64,000 nucleotides of DNA from Acetobacter suratthaniensis (GTDB lineage Bacteria; Pseudomonadota; Alphaproteobacteria; Acetobacterales; Acetobacteraceae). The stretch spans positions 682,001 through 746,000 of the forward strand of contig NZ_JAFVMG010000001.1 of the NCBI RefSeq assembly GCF_017377745.1, written 5' to 3'. The notes under the pieces are model-generated. The model had not been told where the DNA came from. It did not search any database and was given only the letters and a program-made list of their open reading frames with translations. Position 1 is the first letter of the stretch, and every line of letters starts with the position of its first letter. Positions 5,527 through 59,095 of the stretch are shown piece by piece. The position numbers and the translations under genes are program-made.

Positions 5527-7442
5527 GGTGCGTTTCCGCCAAATCCAGCTTCCGACAGGGCGGCATTCACGCCCGCTTCGCTGATATGAGGTGGAGTGCG
5601 GCGCGCTAGAGCATTGATATAGCTTGCGGCAATATCTTCCCCCACGGCTTGTGAAAGGCCGGCGCGAAGCTTGCTGATGGCCTGCTCGGGGGCTGGTGGG
5701 TTCGGAACGAATACGCGTGTAACCACGGCAACAAAAAAGGCTTTGTCATCCTCGGCCATGAACGCCTGCCCCGGTTTCAGGGTGGGCAGAGCGGTCATGA
5801 GTTCGGCCGGAATATTTTTGTTGGGTGCTGCTAGAGCGAAAGAGGCACCGCGCGTGGTCTGCGCCCCAGCGATTGCGGTTGTCCCCAGAGCGCCCTTGGT
5901 TTTTGCTGCGGTGTAGAGACCCGTTGCAGCCAGATCAGCCGCATGGCGCCGGTTTTCTGCCTGCCATGCGGCGAGAACCTGCTCGCGCGCGTTTTCAAAG
6001 CTGAGGGGGGAGGATGGCTTGATCGTGTCCACCACAACAGCGAACCAGCTATTGCCAGGCCCTTGGGTCAGGAAGGGGGGTGCCCCTTCTTTCTGGGTGA
6101 AAATCTGGTGGATGATCGCCTCACGCACGCCGCCAGCGGCTGGAATCGGTGCGGGTGTGCCATCTGGGGTCAGGCCCTGCGCGCTGAGCGTGCCAGAAAT
6201 GGCGGCAGCCCCCAGCGTATCGGGAATGGCGTCCAGCCCTTTGGCGGCAATCGCATCCTGTAGGGGGCGCAAACGCTCGCTGATAGCTGAATCGCTAACG
6301 GCCTTGCGGTATTCATCAAGAATTTGCCCGCGAGCGGTTTCGTAAGGAACGACCTGAGCTGCCGGTTTGATGTTCGATACACGAAAAACGGCCCAGCCAG
6401 ATTCGGTCTTGAGCGGAGCGCTGACAGTCCCTGCCTGAGCGCTAAAAACGGCTTTGCGCAGGGTTTCGGACGGAATGGCGGCCGCGCGAGTGCCCGGCAT
6501 ATCCGCCGAGGCTGCTCCACCGGCTGCTTTTTGCGCGGCAGCCCAGTCGCCTGACGCCTGCCATGCCGTGCTGACGCTTTGCGCCTGTTCCTGAGAGGGG
6601 AAGGTAATGAGCTGCACATCGCGCGTTTCAGGCGTATTGAAACGGCTGGTTGGCTCATCATAAATCTGCCGGATCCGGTTTTCATCCAGCGTCAGGGTAT
6701 CGGCTATGGTCTGGGGCGACAGAACGACAATGCGGGCATGGCGCATTTCTGGCACGCGGAACATCCACGGATGATTGGCGTAATACCGGCGCAGCACGGT
6801 TTCATCTGGTGTGGCCGGTGTTGGCTGTGCGGCAAACGGTATGCGGATGAAATCTACCACATGTGTGCGGGCGCCAAAGGCAATAAAGCGCTGTAGCATG
6901 GTGTCCGGTACGCTTGCCCCTTCGGTCATGGGGAGCAGCACCGCCCGCACAGTCAGATCATCACGGACAAGCTGGATAACGTGCTCTTCTGTGAGTTGGC
7001 GCTCGCGCAGGGTGGCGTTGAAAATGGCGCGGTCAAACTGACCGTTAGACCCTTTAAAATTGGGGAGCGAGAAGATTTCGTCGCGCACGGCTGTATTAGG
7101 AACAATCAGCCCCATTGTGCGTGCGGCTTCCAGCACCTCGGCCCGGCCGGTCAGGCGCTGGAGAATCTGCAACGTCATCTGACGACGCATGATGGGGGAA
7201 AGCTGCGAAGGATCGTTTACACCAGCCTGACGCGCGGCCGCAGGCAGTTCAGCCTGCAACGCGGAGGCAAGCGAGCCCGCCGTTACGGTCTGCTTCCCGA
7301 CACGGGCAGCTACATCCTGCCCTTCGCCCGTATGGCTGATGACATCGCCCACGCCCCAGCCAACAAAGGCTATAAAGACAAAGGCGGCGGTCACACGACC
7401 CAACCACGATTCAACAAAAACTCGCCGCAGGTAGGAAATCAT
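5523..7442 (-). CDS. ppiD: Membrane-anchored peptidyl-prolyl cis-trans isomerase, PpiD/SurA-like
   Basis: 639 residues from the ATG at 7442 (MISYLRRVFVESW). Residues ~12-32 form one transmembrane anchor with a short cytoplasmic N terminus. The rest is expected in the periplasm: a SurA-N-like chaperone region (RQMTLQILQRLTGRAEVLEAA), then a parvulin-like domain around residues 250-370 with MRHARIVVLSPQTI, and a long C-terminal region. By family it is a folding factor for exported proteins at the Sec translocon exit. The open frame extends about 100 codons upstream, but that extension is low-complexity and overlaps the spacer towards tpiA. Its stop overlaps the trpE start, so trp genes are co-transcribed with a chaperone gene. 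Confidence 0.85.
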   Translation of the reverse strand: MISYLRRVFVESWLGRVTAAFVFIAFVGWGVGDVISHTGEGQDVAARVGKQTVTAGSLASALQAELPAAARQAGVNDPSQLSPIMRRQMTLQILQRLTGRAEVLEAARTMGLIVPNTAVRDEIFSLPNFKGSNGQFDRAIFNATLRERQLTEEHVIQLVRDDLTVRAVLLPMTEGASVPDTMLQRFIAFGARTHVVDFIRIPFAAQPTPATPDETVLRRYYANHPWMFRVPEMRHARIVVLSPQTIADTLTLDENRIRQIYDEPTSRFNTPETRDVQLITFPSQEQAQSVSTAWQASGDWAAAQKAAGGAASADMPGTRAAAIPSETLRKAVFSAQAGTVSAPLKTESGWAVFRVSNIKPAAQVVPYETARGQILDEYRKAVSDSAISERLRPLQDAIAAKGLDAIPDTLGAAAISGTLSAQGLTPDGTPAPIPAAGGVREAIIHQIFTQKEGAPPFLTQGPGNSWFAVVVDTIKPSSPLSFENAREQVLAAWQAENRRHAADLAATGLYTAAKTKGALGTTAIAGAQTTRGASFALAAPNKNIPAELMTALPTLKPGQAFMAEDDKAFFVAVVTRVFVPNPPAPEQAISKLRAGLSQAVGEDIAASYINALARRTPPHISEAGVNAALSEAGFGGNAP

Positions 7443-54432: not shown

Positions 54433-55851
54433 ATGGCAAACATGGTGTACCCAGTTGAGGCGCTGTCGATCGCAGGGCTGGTGCTTTCGCCCTGCGTATC
54501 CGGGGCAGCCTATTTTGGTTTGCATCATCGTACCCGGCGCAGAGCTATGCTGCCGGTTTCCCCGCGCTGCCTGACAGATGCTCTGACAGGTCTGCCCAAT
54601 CGGCAGGCTTTTTCGGAGTGGATGGAAAAAAATCTTTCTACCCGCCAGCAGCCTATCGGGCGCAAGGCGCTGCTCATGATCGACCTTGACCGGTTCAAGG
54701 AGATTAATGACGACAGAGGCCATTCAGTAGGCGACGAAATCCTGCGCGTGTTAGGGCGGCGGCTGCGGCACTGCATGGATGAAAAAAAGGGCGAATTTAT
54801 AGCCCATGCCGGGGGCGACAAGTTTTTTGCCTGCTGTTCGTTTTCCAGTCAGCGCGGCGTTATGGATTTTCTGGCGCGTATGCGCCGAGTTCTGGCCCGC
54901 CCTGTGCGCTTGCAGGGTGGTAGTGTTGCGGTTGGTGCCAATTTTGGTGTCGCTTTTTGGGTTGATGGTGCGCCCGGCCGGGATGCGCTGCTGACCAGGG
55001 CCGAACTGGCCATGAACTGTGCCAGAAGTTCGGATCAGCAGGATGTCTGCTATTACGATCCCGCCATGGATCAGGCGCTCAGGCATAGGCTCAATATCGT
55101 TGATGAACTGCGCCACGCTATTGCGCGCAACCAGCTTAGCCTGTGCTATCAAGCACAAAAGCAGATTAGCGATAAAACCATTGTGGGGTTTGAAGCGCTC
55201 TTGCGCTGGGAGCACCCAATGTTGGGCGCAATTTCGCCTGTGGTGTTCATACCCGTCGCGGAAGAAACCGGACTGATACAGGAAATCGGCGAGTGGGTGC
55301 TGCGCACGGCCTGCCATGCTGCAAGCCAGTGGGAGCAGCCTTACCGTATCAGTGTCAATGTGTCCGCCGAGCAGTTTCATCATCATGATCTGCCGGGGCT
55401 GGTGCGCGAGGTGCTGGAAACAACCGGGCTTGCGGCATCAAGGCTGGAGCTTGAGCTGACAGAAACGGCTATTTTTACAGATATGGCACGTGCCAGGGCC
55501 ATTTTGTACGAACTTAAGGATATGGGTGTTTCTATCGCCGTAGATGATTATGGCACCGGCCATTCATCCCTTGGGTTGATCCGCGATATTGTGTTCGACC
55601 GGATCAAGCTGGACAAGCTGTTTGTGCAGAATGCTCTTAGTAACGAAACGGACAGAGCTATTATCCGCGCTGTTATTTTCCTTGGCCATAGCTTGCAGGC
55701 TTCGGTGCTGGCCGAAGGCGTGGAAACGGAAGAGCAGTTTGCTTTTCTTGCAGCTGAAGGCTGTGATGAAATACAGGGCTTTTTGTTGAGCCGCCCTCTC
55801 CCGCTGGATCAGTTGGTGGCAACAGGCAAGGTGCGTCTGCTCGCTGCGTGA
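54433..55851 (+). CDS. GGDEF-EAL domain protein; probable c-di-GMP phosphodiesterase with degenerate GGDEF
   Basis: 472 residues. A short hydrophobic segment at about 8-30 could anchor the N terminus. The GGDEF domain (about 45-210) reads AGGDKF at residues 126-131, so the catalytic Glu of GGDEF is Lys. The EAL domain (about 225-465) keeps GFEALLRW (residues 252-259), Asn in ISVNVS, ELTET, DDYGTGHSSLG (Asp371-Asp372), Lys392 in RIKLDKL and EGVETEEQ. The likely activity is hydrolysis of c-di-GMP, with the GGDEF as a possible GTP sensor. No signal-input domain beyond the N-terminal helix is seen. Confidence 0.9.
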   Translation: MANMVYPVEALSIAGLVLSPCVSGAAYFGLHHRTRRRAMLPVSPRCLTDALTGLPNRQAFSEWMEKNLSTRQQPIGRKALLMIDLDRFKEINDDRGHSVGDEILRVLGRRLRHCMDEKKGEFIAHAGGDKFFACCSFSSQRGVMDFLARMRRVLARPVRLQGGSVAVGANFGVAFWVDGAPGRDALLTRAELAMNCARSSDQQDVCYYDPAMDQALRHRLNIVDELRHAIARNQLSLCYQAQKQISDKTIVGFEALLRWEHPMLGAISPVVFIPVAEETGLIQEIGEWVLRTACHAASQWEQPYRISVNVSAEQFHHHDLPGLVREVLETTGLAASRLELELTETAIFTDMARARAILYELKDMGVSIAVDDYGTGHSSLGLIRDIVFDRIKLDKLFVQNALSNETDRAIIRAVIFLGHSLQASVLAEGVETEEQFAFLAAEGCDEIQGFLLSRPLPLDQLVATGKVRLLAA

Positions 55852-56141
55852 ATAAGCCGGGCAGTGTCATATATAGCCATATAATTTACGTTTTTTATGA
55901 GCATTTAAAGTGCGACCCAATGTCGATTTTGGGTGTTTGCTCTGGTTTATGCGCATCCTACGGGATGCCCTCATCCAGAAAAGTGTGTCTTTTTATATAC
56001 ACCCAATAAACGCGTATTATTAATGACACATATTTCCATCGTAAATTATTGACTTGCACGGGCATGGGTGATTGAAATCGCTCAGGACGGCAGGCGAACA
56101 CACTCTGTTTCGCGCCATAAAATTAAGGAAGTATTCAGGAG
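55852..56141. other. Spacer upstream of the leader peptide of the sulfate-uptake genes
   Basis: A mostly AT-rich spacer of 290 bases. TTGACT at 56049-56054 could be a -35, and TTGAAA at 56072-56077 a weak -10 at 17 bases distance, which would give a leader transcript carrying the short ORF at 56142. No other element is evident. Confidence 0.4.
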
Positions 56142-56216
56142 ATGGATATTCTGTTCGCACAGATTATGCGCCACCAGCCTGCCCCGGCATTTGTTCAGGG
56201 CATGTGTTGCCGCTGA
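56142..56216 (+). CDS. Putative 24-residue leader peptide ending Met-Cys-Cys-Arg
   Basis: ATG at 56142 opens a 24-codon frame ending QGMCCR then TGA; the tandem Cys codons (TGT TGC) are next to the stop. A purine run AGGAG touches the ATG and AAGGAAG lies ~12 bases further upstream, so translation is plausible but not ideal. It sits 118 bases before the porin start and is followed by several hairpins. Short ORFs with adjacent Cys codons act as cysteine-responsive leader peptides in other bacteria; the downstream sulfate uptake genes fit that role. It could also be chance; only conservation can decide. Confidence 0.45.
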   Translation: MDILFAQIMRHQPAPAFVQGMCCR

Positions 56217-56334
56217 GCCCATATGCTGGGTGATTAACGCGGAGCTACAGTTTCCGCGAAAGATATTGTCAGACAATACGGTTCATGATGCCTGATGGAT
56301 CAGGCGAAAGACCACTATTCATAAAGAACTCGCC
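56217..56334 (+). promoter_or_regulatory. Row of hairpins between leader peptide and porin, possible attenuator
   Basis: Three inverted repeats follow the leader stop: CGCGGA/TCCGCG (56238-56258, 9-base loop), TATTGT/ACAATA (56264-56278, 3-base loop) and GCCTGAT/ATCAGGC (56290-56305, 2-base loop, or a 6-bp stem with TGGA tetraloop). A shorter CCCA/TGGG pair (56218-56230) overlaps the end of the leader region. None has a strong U-tract, so any attenuation may be Rho-dependent or translational. Confidence 0.4.
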
Positions 56335-57948
56335 ATGCGTCTTTTTTCCCGCTCCAGTGTGCTTTTGGGTAGCGCCGCATCCGCTCTTTTTTTCTCTCCT
56401 GTTTCCGCACAGGCTTCGAGCGACCCTGAAATGGTTGCTTTGCGGCGTGAAATGCAAAGCATGAGAAGCGAAATCCATCGCCTGCAGTCCCGGGTGGCCA
56501 AATACGAACAGACCAGTCCGGTGAGTGAAACCCCGCACAAGCATGTGCCGCGGCATTTGCGTGTGGCGGGGGCTGATGAACCTCAGCCGGTTTTCAATGA
56601 ACCAGCGCCTGTACATACGGGGCCACGCACCCTTGCGGAAAGCCGTGTTGCTGTACCCGAAGGCCCGGCCATGTCATGGAAAGACTTCAAGGCTGCGTCC
56701 TCCAAGGAAGAAAGCGTGCATGTTGGCGGGATCCAGATCGGTTTCCCGAACGGACGCCCGACCATTGCCTCTGATGACAAAGCCTATGCGTTTTCCATCG
56801 GCTTGTTGGCTCAGGAAGATTTTGGTGGCTTCATGGGTGTGAGCCCCTCGCGCGCTGGTGGTAATTTCAATAATTTCACCCAGAATGCCCGCCGACTGCG
56901 CCTGTATTTCTCATGGCGTTATAAGGATTGGGTCGTCAACGTGACCCCGGATTTCGGTTCAAGCACGTTTGATGGTTCAGCCAGCTTGTTTGAAGCCAAC
57001 GTCAATTACACAGGCCTGCGGCATACCACGCTGACAATCGGTTATTTCCAGCCCAGAATGGAAGAAGAAAGTGCCGAGCGTTCAGGGGCGTTTGAGTTTC
57101 TGGAGCGCCCGGCCATTGTTGACCTCGTGCGTAATATTGCTGGTGGTGTAGGCCGATTCAGTGTTGGTGGCGAACATTACGAAAAACGCTGGCTGGTTGC
57201 AGGTTATTTCACCGGCCAGAAATATGGTGATCGTAGCAAGGATAACACCATAACCGACAGCCAGACCGGTGCGGTCGTGCGTGCTGTCGGCCGTCCTTAT
57301 GTCACCAAGGATATTGATGTGTTTGCCGGGGTCGGCGCCACGGCGGCCTTTAAGGTGAATAACGGCAGCAAGGGACGTCGTTATACCGCTTCGGACAACA
57401 CGAATATTCCTTTGGGTGAAACCAGTCTGCTGACATCGGGCGTCCTGTCCAATGTTTCGCAGATATGGGCTGCCGGGCCGCAGCTTGCGCTACGTTGGAA
57501 GCGTTTCCTGCTTAAAAGTGAATACTACCATATTGGTGTGCAGCAGGGCGCATCTGTCGAGGCGCCATCGGTGCTGCGCTCTTTCGGGTTTGACGGGTGG
57601 TATGTTGCCGCAAACTATACGCTGCTTGGCAACCCGCGTGCCTATAACGAAAAAATCGGCGCGTTTACGACGCCGGGTGTGGTGTACGACTTTGATCCTG
57701 CCCACAATCACTGGGGTGCGCTTGAGCTTTCCGGTCGCTGGAGCGTAACCAACCTGCGTGATGGAGAGACAGGTAACCAGCAGACAACATGGGAAGGCGG
57801 GCTGAACTGGTACCCCAACCGTCATTTCCGTTTCATGCTGGATTATCAGCGTTTCATTATCTCTCGTGACCCCAATACAAAGGCTACCGTCAACCTGTTC
57901 GGCACGACAGGCAATGCCGTGGTCGGGCGTGTGCAGGCCGCCTTCTGA
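56335..57948 (+). CDS. OprO/OprP-like anion-selective porin
   Basis: 537 residues. A signal peptide (RLFSRSSVLLGSAASALFFSPVSAQA) is followed by a coiled-coil (about 30-60, MVALRREMQSMRSEIHRLQSRVAKYEQ) typical of this porin family, a flexible Pro-rich region, then a beta-barrel with GGFMGVSPSRAGG, FNNFTQNARRLRLYFSWRYKDW, YTGLRHTTLTIGYFQPRMEEESAERSGAFEFLERPAIVDL and YPNRHFRFMLDYQRF; it ends with Phe. OprP family channels carry phosphate or other oxyanions; next to a sulfate-binding protein the likely cargo is sulfate. It is followed by sbp after 54 bases without a terminator. Confidence 0.9.
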   Translation: MRLFSRSSVLLGSAASALFFSPVSAQASSDPEMVALRREMQSMRSEIHRLQSRVAKYEQTSPVSETPHKHVPRHLRVAGADEPQPVFNEPAPVHTGPRTLAESRVAVPEGPAMSWKDFKAASSKEESVHVGGIQIGFPNGRPTIASDDKAYAFSIGLLAQEDFGGFMGVSPSRAGGNFNNFTQNARRLRLYFSWRYKDWVVNVTPDFGSSTFDGSASLFEANVNYTGLRHTTLTIGYFQPRMEEESAERSGAFEFLERPAIVDLVRNIAGGVGRFSVGGEHYEKRWLVAGYFTGQKYGDRSKDNTITDSQTGAVVRAVGRPYVTKDIDVFAGVGATAAFKVNNGSKGRRYTASDNTNIPLGETSLLTSGVLSNVSQIWAAGPQLALRWKRFLLKSEYYHIGVQQGASVEAPSVLRSFGFDGWYVAANYTLLGNPRAYNEKIGAFTTPGVVYDFDPAHNHWGALELSGRWSVTNLRDGETGNQQTTWEGGLNWYPNRHFRFMLDYQRFIISRDPNTKATVNLFGTTGNAVVGRVQAAF

Positions 57949-58002: not shown

Positions 58003-59040
58003 ATGACACAGTTTTCTGGTATTACACGTCGTTCCGTTTTCCGTGGTGGTTTTGCGCTTGGCGCGGGGTTGGTCGCTGGCAGTCTGGTCGGGCGTCAGGC
58101 TCAGGCAGCGTCCTATTCCTTGCTGAATGTTTCCTATGATCCCACCCGTGAACTCTATGCTGATGTTGGCAAGGCATTCAGCACGCATTGGACGCAGGAG
58201 CACCCGGGCGATGTGGTGCGCGTACGCTCCTCTCATGGTGGTTCGGGTGCGCAGGCCCGTTCCGTTCTGGATGGTGCCCCGGCTGATGTCGTAACATTGG
58301 GCCTTGCCTATGATATCGACATTCTGGCGCAAAAAGGCCTGCTGGCGGCAGACTGGCAGAAGCGCCTGCCACATAACTCAACGCCCTATACCAGCACCAT
58401 CGTTTTTCTGGTGCGCAAAGGTAATCCCAAAAACATTCACGACTGGCCCGATCTGATCCGTGGCGATGTGCAGGTTATTACCCCCAACCCCAAGACTTCA
58501 GGCGGGGCGCGGTGGAATTATCTGGCGGCATGGGGCTGGGCGTTGCAGCAGCCCGGTGGCTCGGAAGCAACGGCGCGTGAATATCTGAAGTCGCTCTATG
58601 CTCATGTGCCTGTGCTCGATACCGGTGCACGTGGGGCGACCAACAGCTTCGTTCAGCGTGGATTGGGTGATGTTCTGCTGGCATGGGAAAACGAAGCCCT
58701 GCTGGCAACGCGCGAACTGGGGCCGGACAAGTTCGATATTGTCGTTCCCCCCAAAACCATTCTGACTGAACCCCCTGTGGCCGTTGTGGACAAAAATGCT
58801 CAGGCGCATGGGACAACAGATGTGGCGCGCGCGTATCTGGACTTCCTGTTCTCTCCTGAGGGGCAGCATATCGGGGCTCGCCATTACTTCCGGCCTGTGG
58901 ATCCGGCGGTTAAGGCAGAAACGGCTGCGTCTTTCCCGCATACGGACACGTTCGATATTGCCAGCCTTGGTGGATGGCAGAGTGTCCAGAAAAAACATTT
59001 TGCCGATGGCGGTATCTTCGATCAGATTTACGCCAAATAA
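58003..59040 (+). CDS. sbp: Periplasmic sulfate-binding protein of an ABC transporter
   Basis: 345 residues from the ATG at 58003 with TGGAG upstream; a GTG five codons before is in frame. A Tat-type signal (TRRSVFRGGFALGAGLVAGSLVG, twin Arg at the start) leads into LLNVSYDPTRELY, SHGGSGAQARSVLDG, DVVTLGLAYDIDILA, NSTPYTSTIVFLVRKGNPKNIHDWPDL, VITPNPKTSGGARWNYLAAWGW and GDVLLAWENEALLA, all hallmarks of Sbp/CysP. The ABC permeases and ATPase are not in the window. A terminator follows, so it is an orphan binding protein with the porin. Confidence 0.94.
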   Translation: MTQFSGITRRSVFRGGFALGAGLVAGSLVGRQAQAASYSLLNVSYDPTRELYADVGKAFSTHWTQEHPGDVVRVRSSHGGSGAQARSVLDGAPADVVTLGLAYDIDILAQKGLLAADWQKRLPHNSTPYTSTIVFLVRKGNPKNIHDWPDLIRGDVQVITPNPKTSGGARWNYLAAWGWALQQPGGSEATAREYLKSLYAHVPVLDTGARGATNSFVQRGLGDVLLAWENEALLATRELGPDKFDIVVPPKTILTEPPVAVVDKNAQAHGTTDVARAYLDFLFSPEGQHIGARHYFRPVDPAVKAETAASFPHTDTFDIASLGGWQSVQKKHFADGGIFDQIYAK

Positions 59041-59058: not shown

Positions 59059-59095
59059 AGGCCGGGTAGCCCATGAGGCTCCCGGCCTTTTTTTT
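59059..59095 (+). terminator. Terminator of the porin-sbp transcript
   Basis: AGGCCGGG and CCCGGCCT pair around a 14-base loop and are followed by eight T residues, 20 bases after the sbp stop. It also separates the convergent aminotransferase gene. Confidence 0.85.

Follow-up and report, generated by a model that had tools for sequence, protein, structure and literature searches.

The stretch of DNA analysed (the window) comprises 64,000 nucleotides of Acetobacter suratthaniensis. The leader and its signals, the two genes that follow it and the terminator behind them all lie on the forward strand. Direct reading of positions 56142–56216 gives an open reading frame (ORF) of 24 codons, with ATG at 56142 and TGA at 56214–56216, which encodes MDILFAQIMRHQPAPAFVQGMCCR and finishes with Met-Cys-Cys-Arg before the stop, 118 nt 5′ of an OprP-type porin gene. 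This agrees with what an earlier note on this DNA had described. The terminal block ATG TGT TGC CGC TGA (MCCR-stop, 56202–56216) contains the proposed sensing codons. ORFs of 23 and 24 codons occur at the same place and in frame in A. peroxydans and A. papayae, respectively. A Shine–Dalgarno (SD) sequence, AAGGAAG, is located 10 nt before the ATG (56125–56131); TTAAGGAAGT is identical here in the three species, and the duplex with the anti-SD amounts to −6.8 kcal/mol in each of them. Further upstream, TTGACT (56049–56054) and TTGAAA (56072–56077), separated by 17 nt, form a probable leader promoter (56049–56077). Its TTGACT segment is kept in both relatives, while TTGAAA matches poorly, and the pair was absent from the output of the promoter scan. 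Of the codons in 41 long ORFs of the window, chosen mechanically, 1.1% are for Cys, and adjacent Cys pairs occur only twice in 17,493 codons. Taken singly, the leader ORF would not be striking with respect to chance, while the pattern across species is.

A GGDEF-EAL gene (54433–55851) lies directly 5′ of the leader. The leaders of A. peroxydans and A. papayae also come after a similar gene, which is split over two frames in the A. papayae record, while porin-sbp loci elsewhere have, by eye, different upstream ORFs.

The porin gene (56335–57948) encodes 537 amino acids and matches Pfam Porin_O_P (PF07396, E 3.7e-27). After a gap of 54 nt it is followed by sbp (58003–59040), the gene for a Tat-type periplasmic sulfate-binding protein (NF008022, E 1.7e-137; TIGR00971, E 5.9e-133) with a twin-arginine N terminus, TRRSVF, recognized by eye, and then by an intrinsic terminator (59075–59095) composed of a stem-loop and a T run. 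The sbp gene had been called an orphan and it deserves the name, because the sulfate permease genes (CysT and CysW/CysA-like) are found about 110 kb away from it, together with cysH, cysD and a cysNC-like gene.

Porin and sbp are adjacent in the window and in 24 of the 40 loci fetched, three of these 24 with partial or internally deleted porin matches. Six of the 40 contain sbp without this porin, and the remainder show the porin alone within the fetched stretch. At both loci tested (L126, G000:C34:49000-54500, and L131), one of them in the window's own genome, OprP-type paralogues follow a gene for the phosphate-binding protein PstS. In acetic acid bacteria, members of this porin family seem to be paired with substrate-binding proteins for different anions. 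The pairing of porin and sbp supports, from the neighbourhood of the genes, sulfate uptake as the job of the window pair. In locus L103 (G015:C36:14000-19200), the porin before sbp seems internally deleted, as only query residues 1–103 and 476–537 match, and they abut. Ten Acetobacter loci (L094, L095, L098, L101, L103, L107, L110, L111, L112 and L121) show by eye, before the porin, a gene with a common end like FYAAHESVQSLHN, a gene which is absent from that position in the three leader-bearing species.

Conservation of the leader in close relatives

The relatives compared were the two closest, A. peroxydans NBRC 13755 and A. papayae JCM 25143, i.e., three species of a single clade in all. 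Considering the 450 nt upstream of 35 other porin starts, both sbp- and PstS-type, two carry an ORF ending in MCCR-stop, 117 nt 5′ of the porin. The leader of A. peroxydans reads MESLFEQSIGRYHVPAMYRMCCR and that of A. papayae MGTLLLQTIRRDTARVLFGIMCCR, each followed by a stop, and the porins are 89% and 84% identical, respectively, to that of the window. The MCCR-stop ending is the same in the three species, while the first 20 codons have diverged (58–63% identical). In each species pair, 13 of the 15 nt of the MCCR-stop block are identical (87%), and the spacer after the leader stop is 73–82% identical. Since the fourfold-degenerate sites of the porin gene are only 44–47% identical among the same species (231 to 258 sites per pair), the better-kept leader is under selection.

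Three columns of the MCCR-stop block vary: the third base of the second Cys codon, the third base of the Arg codon and the middle base of the stop, which is TGA, TGA and TAA in the three species. All these differences are synonymous. In a scan of 15-nt windows free of gaps in which three or more columns vary, 2 of 188 were fully synonymous in the forward direction and 0 of 188 in the reverse one, and the two forward cases were the MCCR-stop block and its one-codon-shifted overlap. In a stricter test, the three changes of the block were placed at random on matching bases, and 2 of 30 placements were also fully synonymous, which makes the synonymy test of this single block only modest. The leader ORF has one indel, of 3 nt, while the other indels of the aligned leader, its unaligned ends apart, are of single bases. 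On the other hand, when the observed differences are placed at random, the ORF stays open 41% of the time, so open first codons are weak evidence. Judged from the alignments as a whole, the leader is conserved and there is synonymous constraint on its MCCR-stop end. The earlier note had proposed, as a test, a QGMCCR-like end conserved with synonymous changes; its MCCR-stop portion is indeed kept in this way in the two closest relatives, while QGMCCR as such is not.

Distribution of the leader and other cysteine-ending frames

A leader model (R1), which uses sequence only, was built from the three leaders and applied with strict filters. It finds the leader in 3 of the 51 sources given to it, and in 3 of 49 Acetobacter genomes with E below 1e-50. 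Matches in seven other genomes and at a second place of A. papayae, with E from 0.04 to 0.5, were taken as chance. No further close species turned up in the collections searched, and a search for plasmid copies gave no positive result. Conservation across the Acetobacteraceae, which had been put forward as a check, was not borne out by these figures nor by the 2 of 35 other porin starts: the leader is a small and narrow feature, confined to three related species. When the 49 Acetobacter genomes were searched with the 24-mer as a protein query, the window's leader was retrieved together with 37 weak matches (E 0.05 to 2.2), which were discarded; 30 of the 37 were checked by frame and none of them resembles such a leader. 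The leaders of the relatives were missed by this search because they are too diverged, and were recovered by synteny.

Concerning the nucleotide pattern itself, TGYTGYMGNTRR, which admits TGG besides stops, was found at 81 places in the window's own genome, versus 41 for the reversed pattern. ATG-TGY-TGY-CGN-TRA was matched in 158 of 397 Acetobacteraceae genomes, with a reversed-pattern control of 0 in most genomes. In 30 loci fetched from among the matches listed, the motif was found again in 27, considering both strands. A family-wide MCCR-stop leader was nevertheless rejected: the 26 loci other than the window all have the motif lying across longer open frames of 125 to 891 codons (in 14 loci that frame reads Val-Leu-Pro/Ser-Leu, in 10 it is on the reverse strand, and in 2 it is the third frame). 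The excess of the pattern in the 397 genomes is most plausibly explained by coding sequence read in another frame.

Short ORFs with two Cys among their last six residues were sought up to 1000 nt upstream in 105 regions, the window included, and gave no further MCCR-stop leader. In this set, three porin regions (L062–L064) were mis-cut and many sbp regions fall inside the porin gene. Other Cys-ending frames were seen scattered in the set. Two-Cys short ORFs before the porins of two A. okinawensis genomes (MMRLSCCE and MVCFSCFE, each with its stop) were set aside as mutually discordant. In other Alphaproteobacteria, sbp was present at threshold in 41 of 241 genomes, and 48 of 50 places were examined, leaving out the two of the own genome. 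A short ORF with two Cys in its last eight residues preceded sbp in 9 of these 48 places versus 5 of 48 on the reverse strand, with no clear enrichment. One pair ending in VCLLCR-stop (L243 and L244) was dismissed as a leader, having no common ATG start and being surrounded by equally conserved DNA, and was taken as promoter DNA.

The same three genomes contain other frames of this kind. At the second sbp copy (C34), a frame ending in SICCGPR-stop occurs in all three species, 39–40 nt 5′ of the neighbour gene that precedes sbp, which we take to be AlgH/YqgE-like. The frame (L162, about 5764–5800, and also L163 and L164) lies in some 45 nt of identical DNA. Its Cys-Cys columns are invariant, so synonymy is uninformative, and its start is not common to the three species. 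It lies upstream of a promoter-like TTGTCA..CATATT, which is conserved further out, and it is absent from 27 of 30 Acetobacter loci examined (of 47 places), the next relatives included. It was not counted as a second Cys leader, though it may be one: it looks like promoter DNA and probably lies 5′ of the promoter. In the three genomes, no conserved Cys-rich leader was found in front of the cysH operon. The frame MISCTNCKPCRITP, followed by a stop, in the window's genome was discarded, as it overlaps the cysH frame and was not listed in the relatives, and a frame ending in SVCCYG-stop before the divergent gene near cysH is present in A. peroxydans alone. By eye, the three species share upstream of cysH an identical palindrome-like GCATAAGATATATTATGC (L221, about 6210–6240, L222 and L223) and an ORF of 8–9 codons, MVKI(K/R)VV.., which are possibly a regulator site and another leader, respectively.

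The spacer, the proposed mechanism and its alternatives

The 118 nt from the leader stop to the porin ATG (56217–56334) form an untranslated spacer, which has at its 3′ end a very weak porin SD. Its duplex amounts to −0.9 kcal/mol in all three leader-bearing species, which rank 32nd to 34th from the strongest among 36 porin starts, only L127 and L131 being weaker. Eight of the 36, all of Acetobacter, have a GGGGG site at −8.4 kcal/mol or stronger, and several Acetobacter sbp-type porins without leader are also weak (−2.5 to −4.4 kcal/mol). Because the three species are related, their weak porin SD counts as one evolutionary observation.

The several hairpins reported after the ORF are predicted in the spacer, but its folding is only modestly better than that of shuffled sequences: z is −1.87, −1.45 and −2.63 in the three species, with 10, 14 and 1 of 200 shuffles as good. 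A local hairpin (56201–56225) has as 5′ arm CATGTG, with the Met and most of the first Cys codon, and as 3′ arm CATATG past the stop, and encloses the codons for the second Cys, Arg and stop; all six pairs form in the three species. The spacer hairpins GCGGA/TCCGC (56239–56257) and GCCTGA/TCAGGC (56290–56305) keep 5/5 and 6/6 pairs, respectively, with no two-sided change. The covariation that had been proposed as a test did not appear: a single one of the 17 pairs is compensatory, a C-G to U-A change in the first hairpin, which is not significant with three sequences and is equalled in 168 of 500 shuffles. Folding in silico of the three species gave no stall-dependent opening of the porin start. 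From the fold after the stop to that with a ribosome at the first Cys codon, the mean openness of the porin ribosome site went from 0.46 to 0.46 in the window and from 0.28 to 0.28 in A. papayae; in A. peroxydans it went from 0.57 to 0.75, with no rise with respect to the full-leader fold (0.74). Pairing of the bases after the stop with the porin start was matched by 310 of 500 shuffles in the window, and by 19 and 103 of 500 in the relatives. Comparison of 56000–56400 with the Rfam families gave no match up to E = 1.

The sequence pattern combines a strong ribosome site with an N terminus that is free and, just before a conserved stop, with conserved codons for the end product of the pathway; it is of the amino-acid leader peptide type. 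We infer that the leader is translated in vivo, that ribosomes pause on it and that this has an output, probably at porin translation. The main reading, which from the sequences we consider about 50% probable, is that the translated peptide would serve to attenuate the porin-sbp operon in response to cysteine. With charged Cys-tRNA plentiful, ribosomes would move past both Cys codons and be released at the stop, after which the leader RNA would fold, and the porin, with its very weak SD, would be poorly translated. With charged Cys-tRNA scarce, a ribosome would pause at the Cys pair, covering the Met-Cys codons as well as the bases just past the stop. It would melt the 56201–56225 hairpin and alter the spacer, and the altered spacer would raise porin translation (or mRNA survival) and, with it, sulfate uptake. 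As the Met is conserved too, a general sulfur-amino-acid signal is possible. A more detailed version is offered tentatively: an independently evolved, SD-led sensor of cysteine (or of sulfur amino acids, through Met-Cys-Cys) in Alphaproteobacteria, which would control outer-membrane sulfate entry via porin translation; in the lineage where the leader was acquired, the porin's own ribosome site would have weakened strongly.

The leader could matter instead by being translated, with no part for Cys-tRNA. A strong ribosome site and a termination event 118 nt upstream could determine how the porin mRNA folds, how stable it is or how ribosomes load on it; alternatively, the end of the nascent peptide, MCCR, could sense another signal, such as redox, a metal or release at the stop. 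This fits the strong, conserved leader SD, the conserved stop and the very weak porin SD. It also fits the Arg before the stop, which is conserved no less strictly than the Cys pair and shows a synonymous change, and a Cys-Cys pair may bind metal or become oxidised. However, the downstream genes serve sulfate uptake, a pathway whose product is Cys, and the sparing of only the stop-adjacent codons is the pattern of the Cys-codon leaders of actinobacterial cys operons (PMC1262725). We regard this explanation as rather unlikely.

It is improbable that the ORF is incidental, i.e., that a conserved RNA or DNA element (a structured leader, or a site for a small RNA or a protein) happens to hold an open frame. 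Such an element would account for the conservation of the non-coding spacer, for the three hairpins pairing in 51 of 51 cells (17 pairs in three species), one of them with the Met-Cys codons inside, and for first codons that are so often open by chance; moreover, the comparable SICCGPR-stop frame in these genomes resembles conserved promoter DNA. It would not account for three differences in the MCCR-stop block that are all synonymous, one of them turning TGA into TAA, as in no other window apart from the one-codon-shifted overlap, nor for an ORF whose sole indel is of 3 nt, amid single-base indels elsewhere, nor for the keeping of the leader ATG and SD.

With respect to termination, the statement that there is no clear U-tract holds: 56142–56334 is free of terminator-like sites, and the only one in the scanned 55850–56400 is at 55915–55934, before the leader. 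Rho-dependent attenuation in the style of the tryptophanase operon, with a stalled ribosome masking a Rho site, had been suggested and would suit a Cys leader placed just 5′ of a long untranslated spacer without U-tract terminator, and was proposed for the actinobacterial Cys leaders (PMC1262725), but it is very improbable here, the spacer being neither C-rich nor G-poor (judged by composition only: over 60-nt windows, the excess of C over G peaks at +1, −3 and −1 in the respective species). Translational control is preferred over termination because the spacer has neither a U-tract terminator nor a C-rich, G-poor stretch, and because the porin SD is very weak.

Comparison with known leader peptides

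In the leader peptides of the trp, his and leu operons, the informative part is a few codons for the amino acid of the pathway, and attenuators of this classical type rely on a U-tract terminator that competes with an antiterminator. The porin-sbp leader resembles the classical leaders in being a short ORF with a few codons for the amino acid of the regulated pathway, and differs from trp-type attenuators in that no U-tract terminator/antiterminator pair was found. The peTrpL attenuator of S. meliloti (PMC7298713), reportedly a leader ORF with informative pathway codons, is a comparable system.

Cys-codon leaders were described in 2005 for the cys operons of Mycobacterium and Propionibacterium acnes and for cbs of Bifidobacterium longum, with the Cys codons near the stop (PMC1262725). 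That report gives them no conserved terminator hairpin and leaves their mode of action open. The present leader is like them in being a short ORF, with Cys codons by the stop, before sulfur or cysteine genes. It is unlike them in having a single Cys pair rather than a run of Cys codons, in belonging to an alphaproteobacterium and in preceding a porin and sbp. Leaderless polycysteine short ORFs of mycobacteria were reported to respond to cysteine and to control operons (Canestrari et al. 2020, PMC8764745). The likeness lies in ribosomes on the Cys codons of an upstream short ORF, which by hypothesis would have the same function here. The difference is that those ORFs are leaderless and polycysteine, as the title of that work states, while ours is preceded by an SD and probably by a 5′ leader, and carries just two Cys codons in all three species.

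Literature searches, with most subscription papers outside their scope, found nothing on Acetobacter leader peptides or attenuation, nor on leader peptides with cysteine codons and sulfate; in the sources found, Cys-codon leaders are all actinobacterial. So far as can be judged from sequence, the porin-sbp leader is real and is a lineage-specific variant of the known kind of Cys-codon leader, for which we infer cysteine sensing. It is an unannotated ORF of 24 codons that can be recognized from four codons and a stop. If the reading as a cysteine-responsive attenuator is true, ribosome-based cysteine sensing also arose outside the actinobacteria, where it would be used for outer-membrane uptake.
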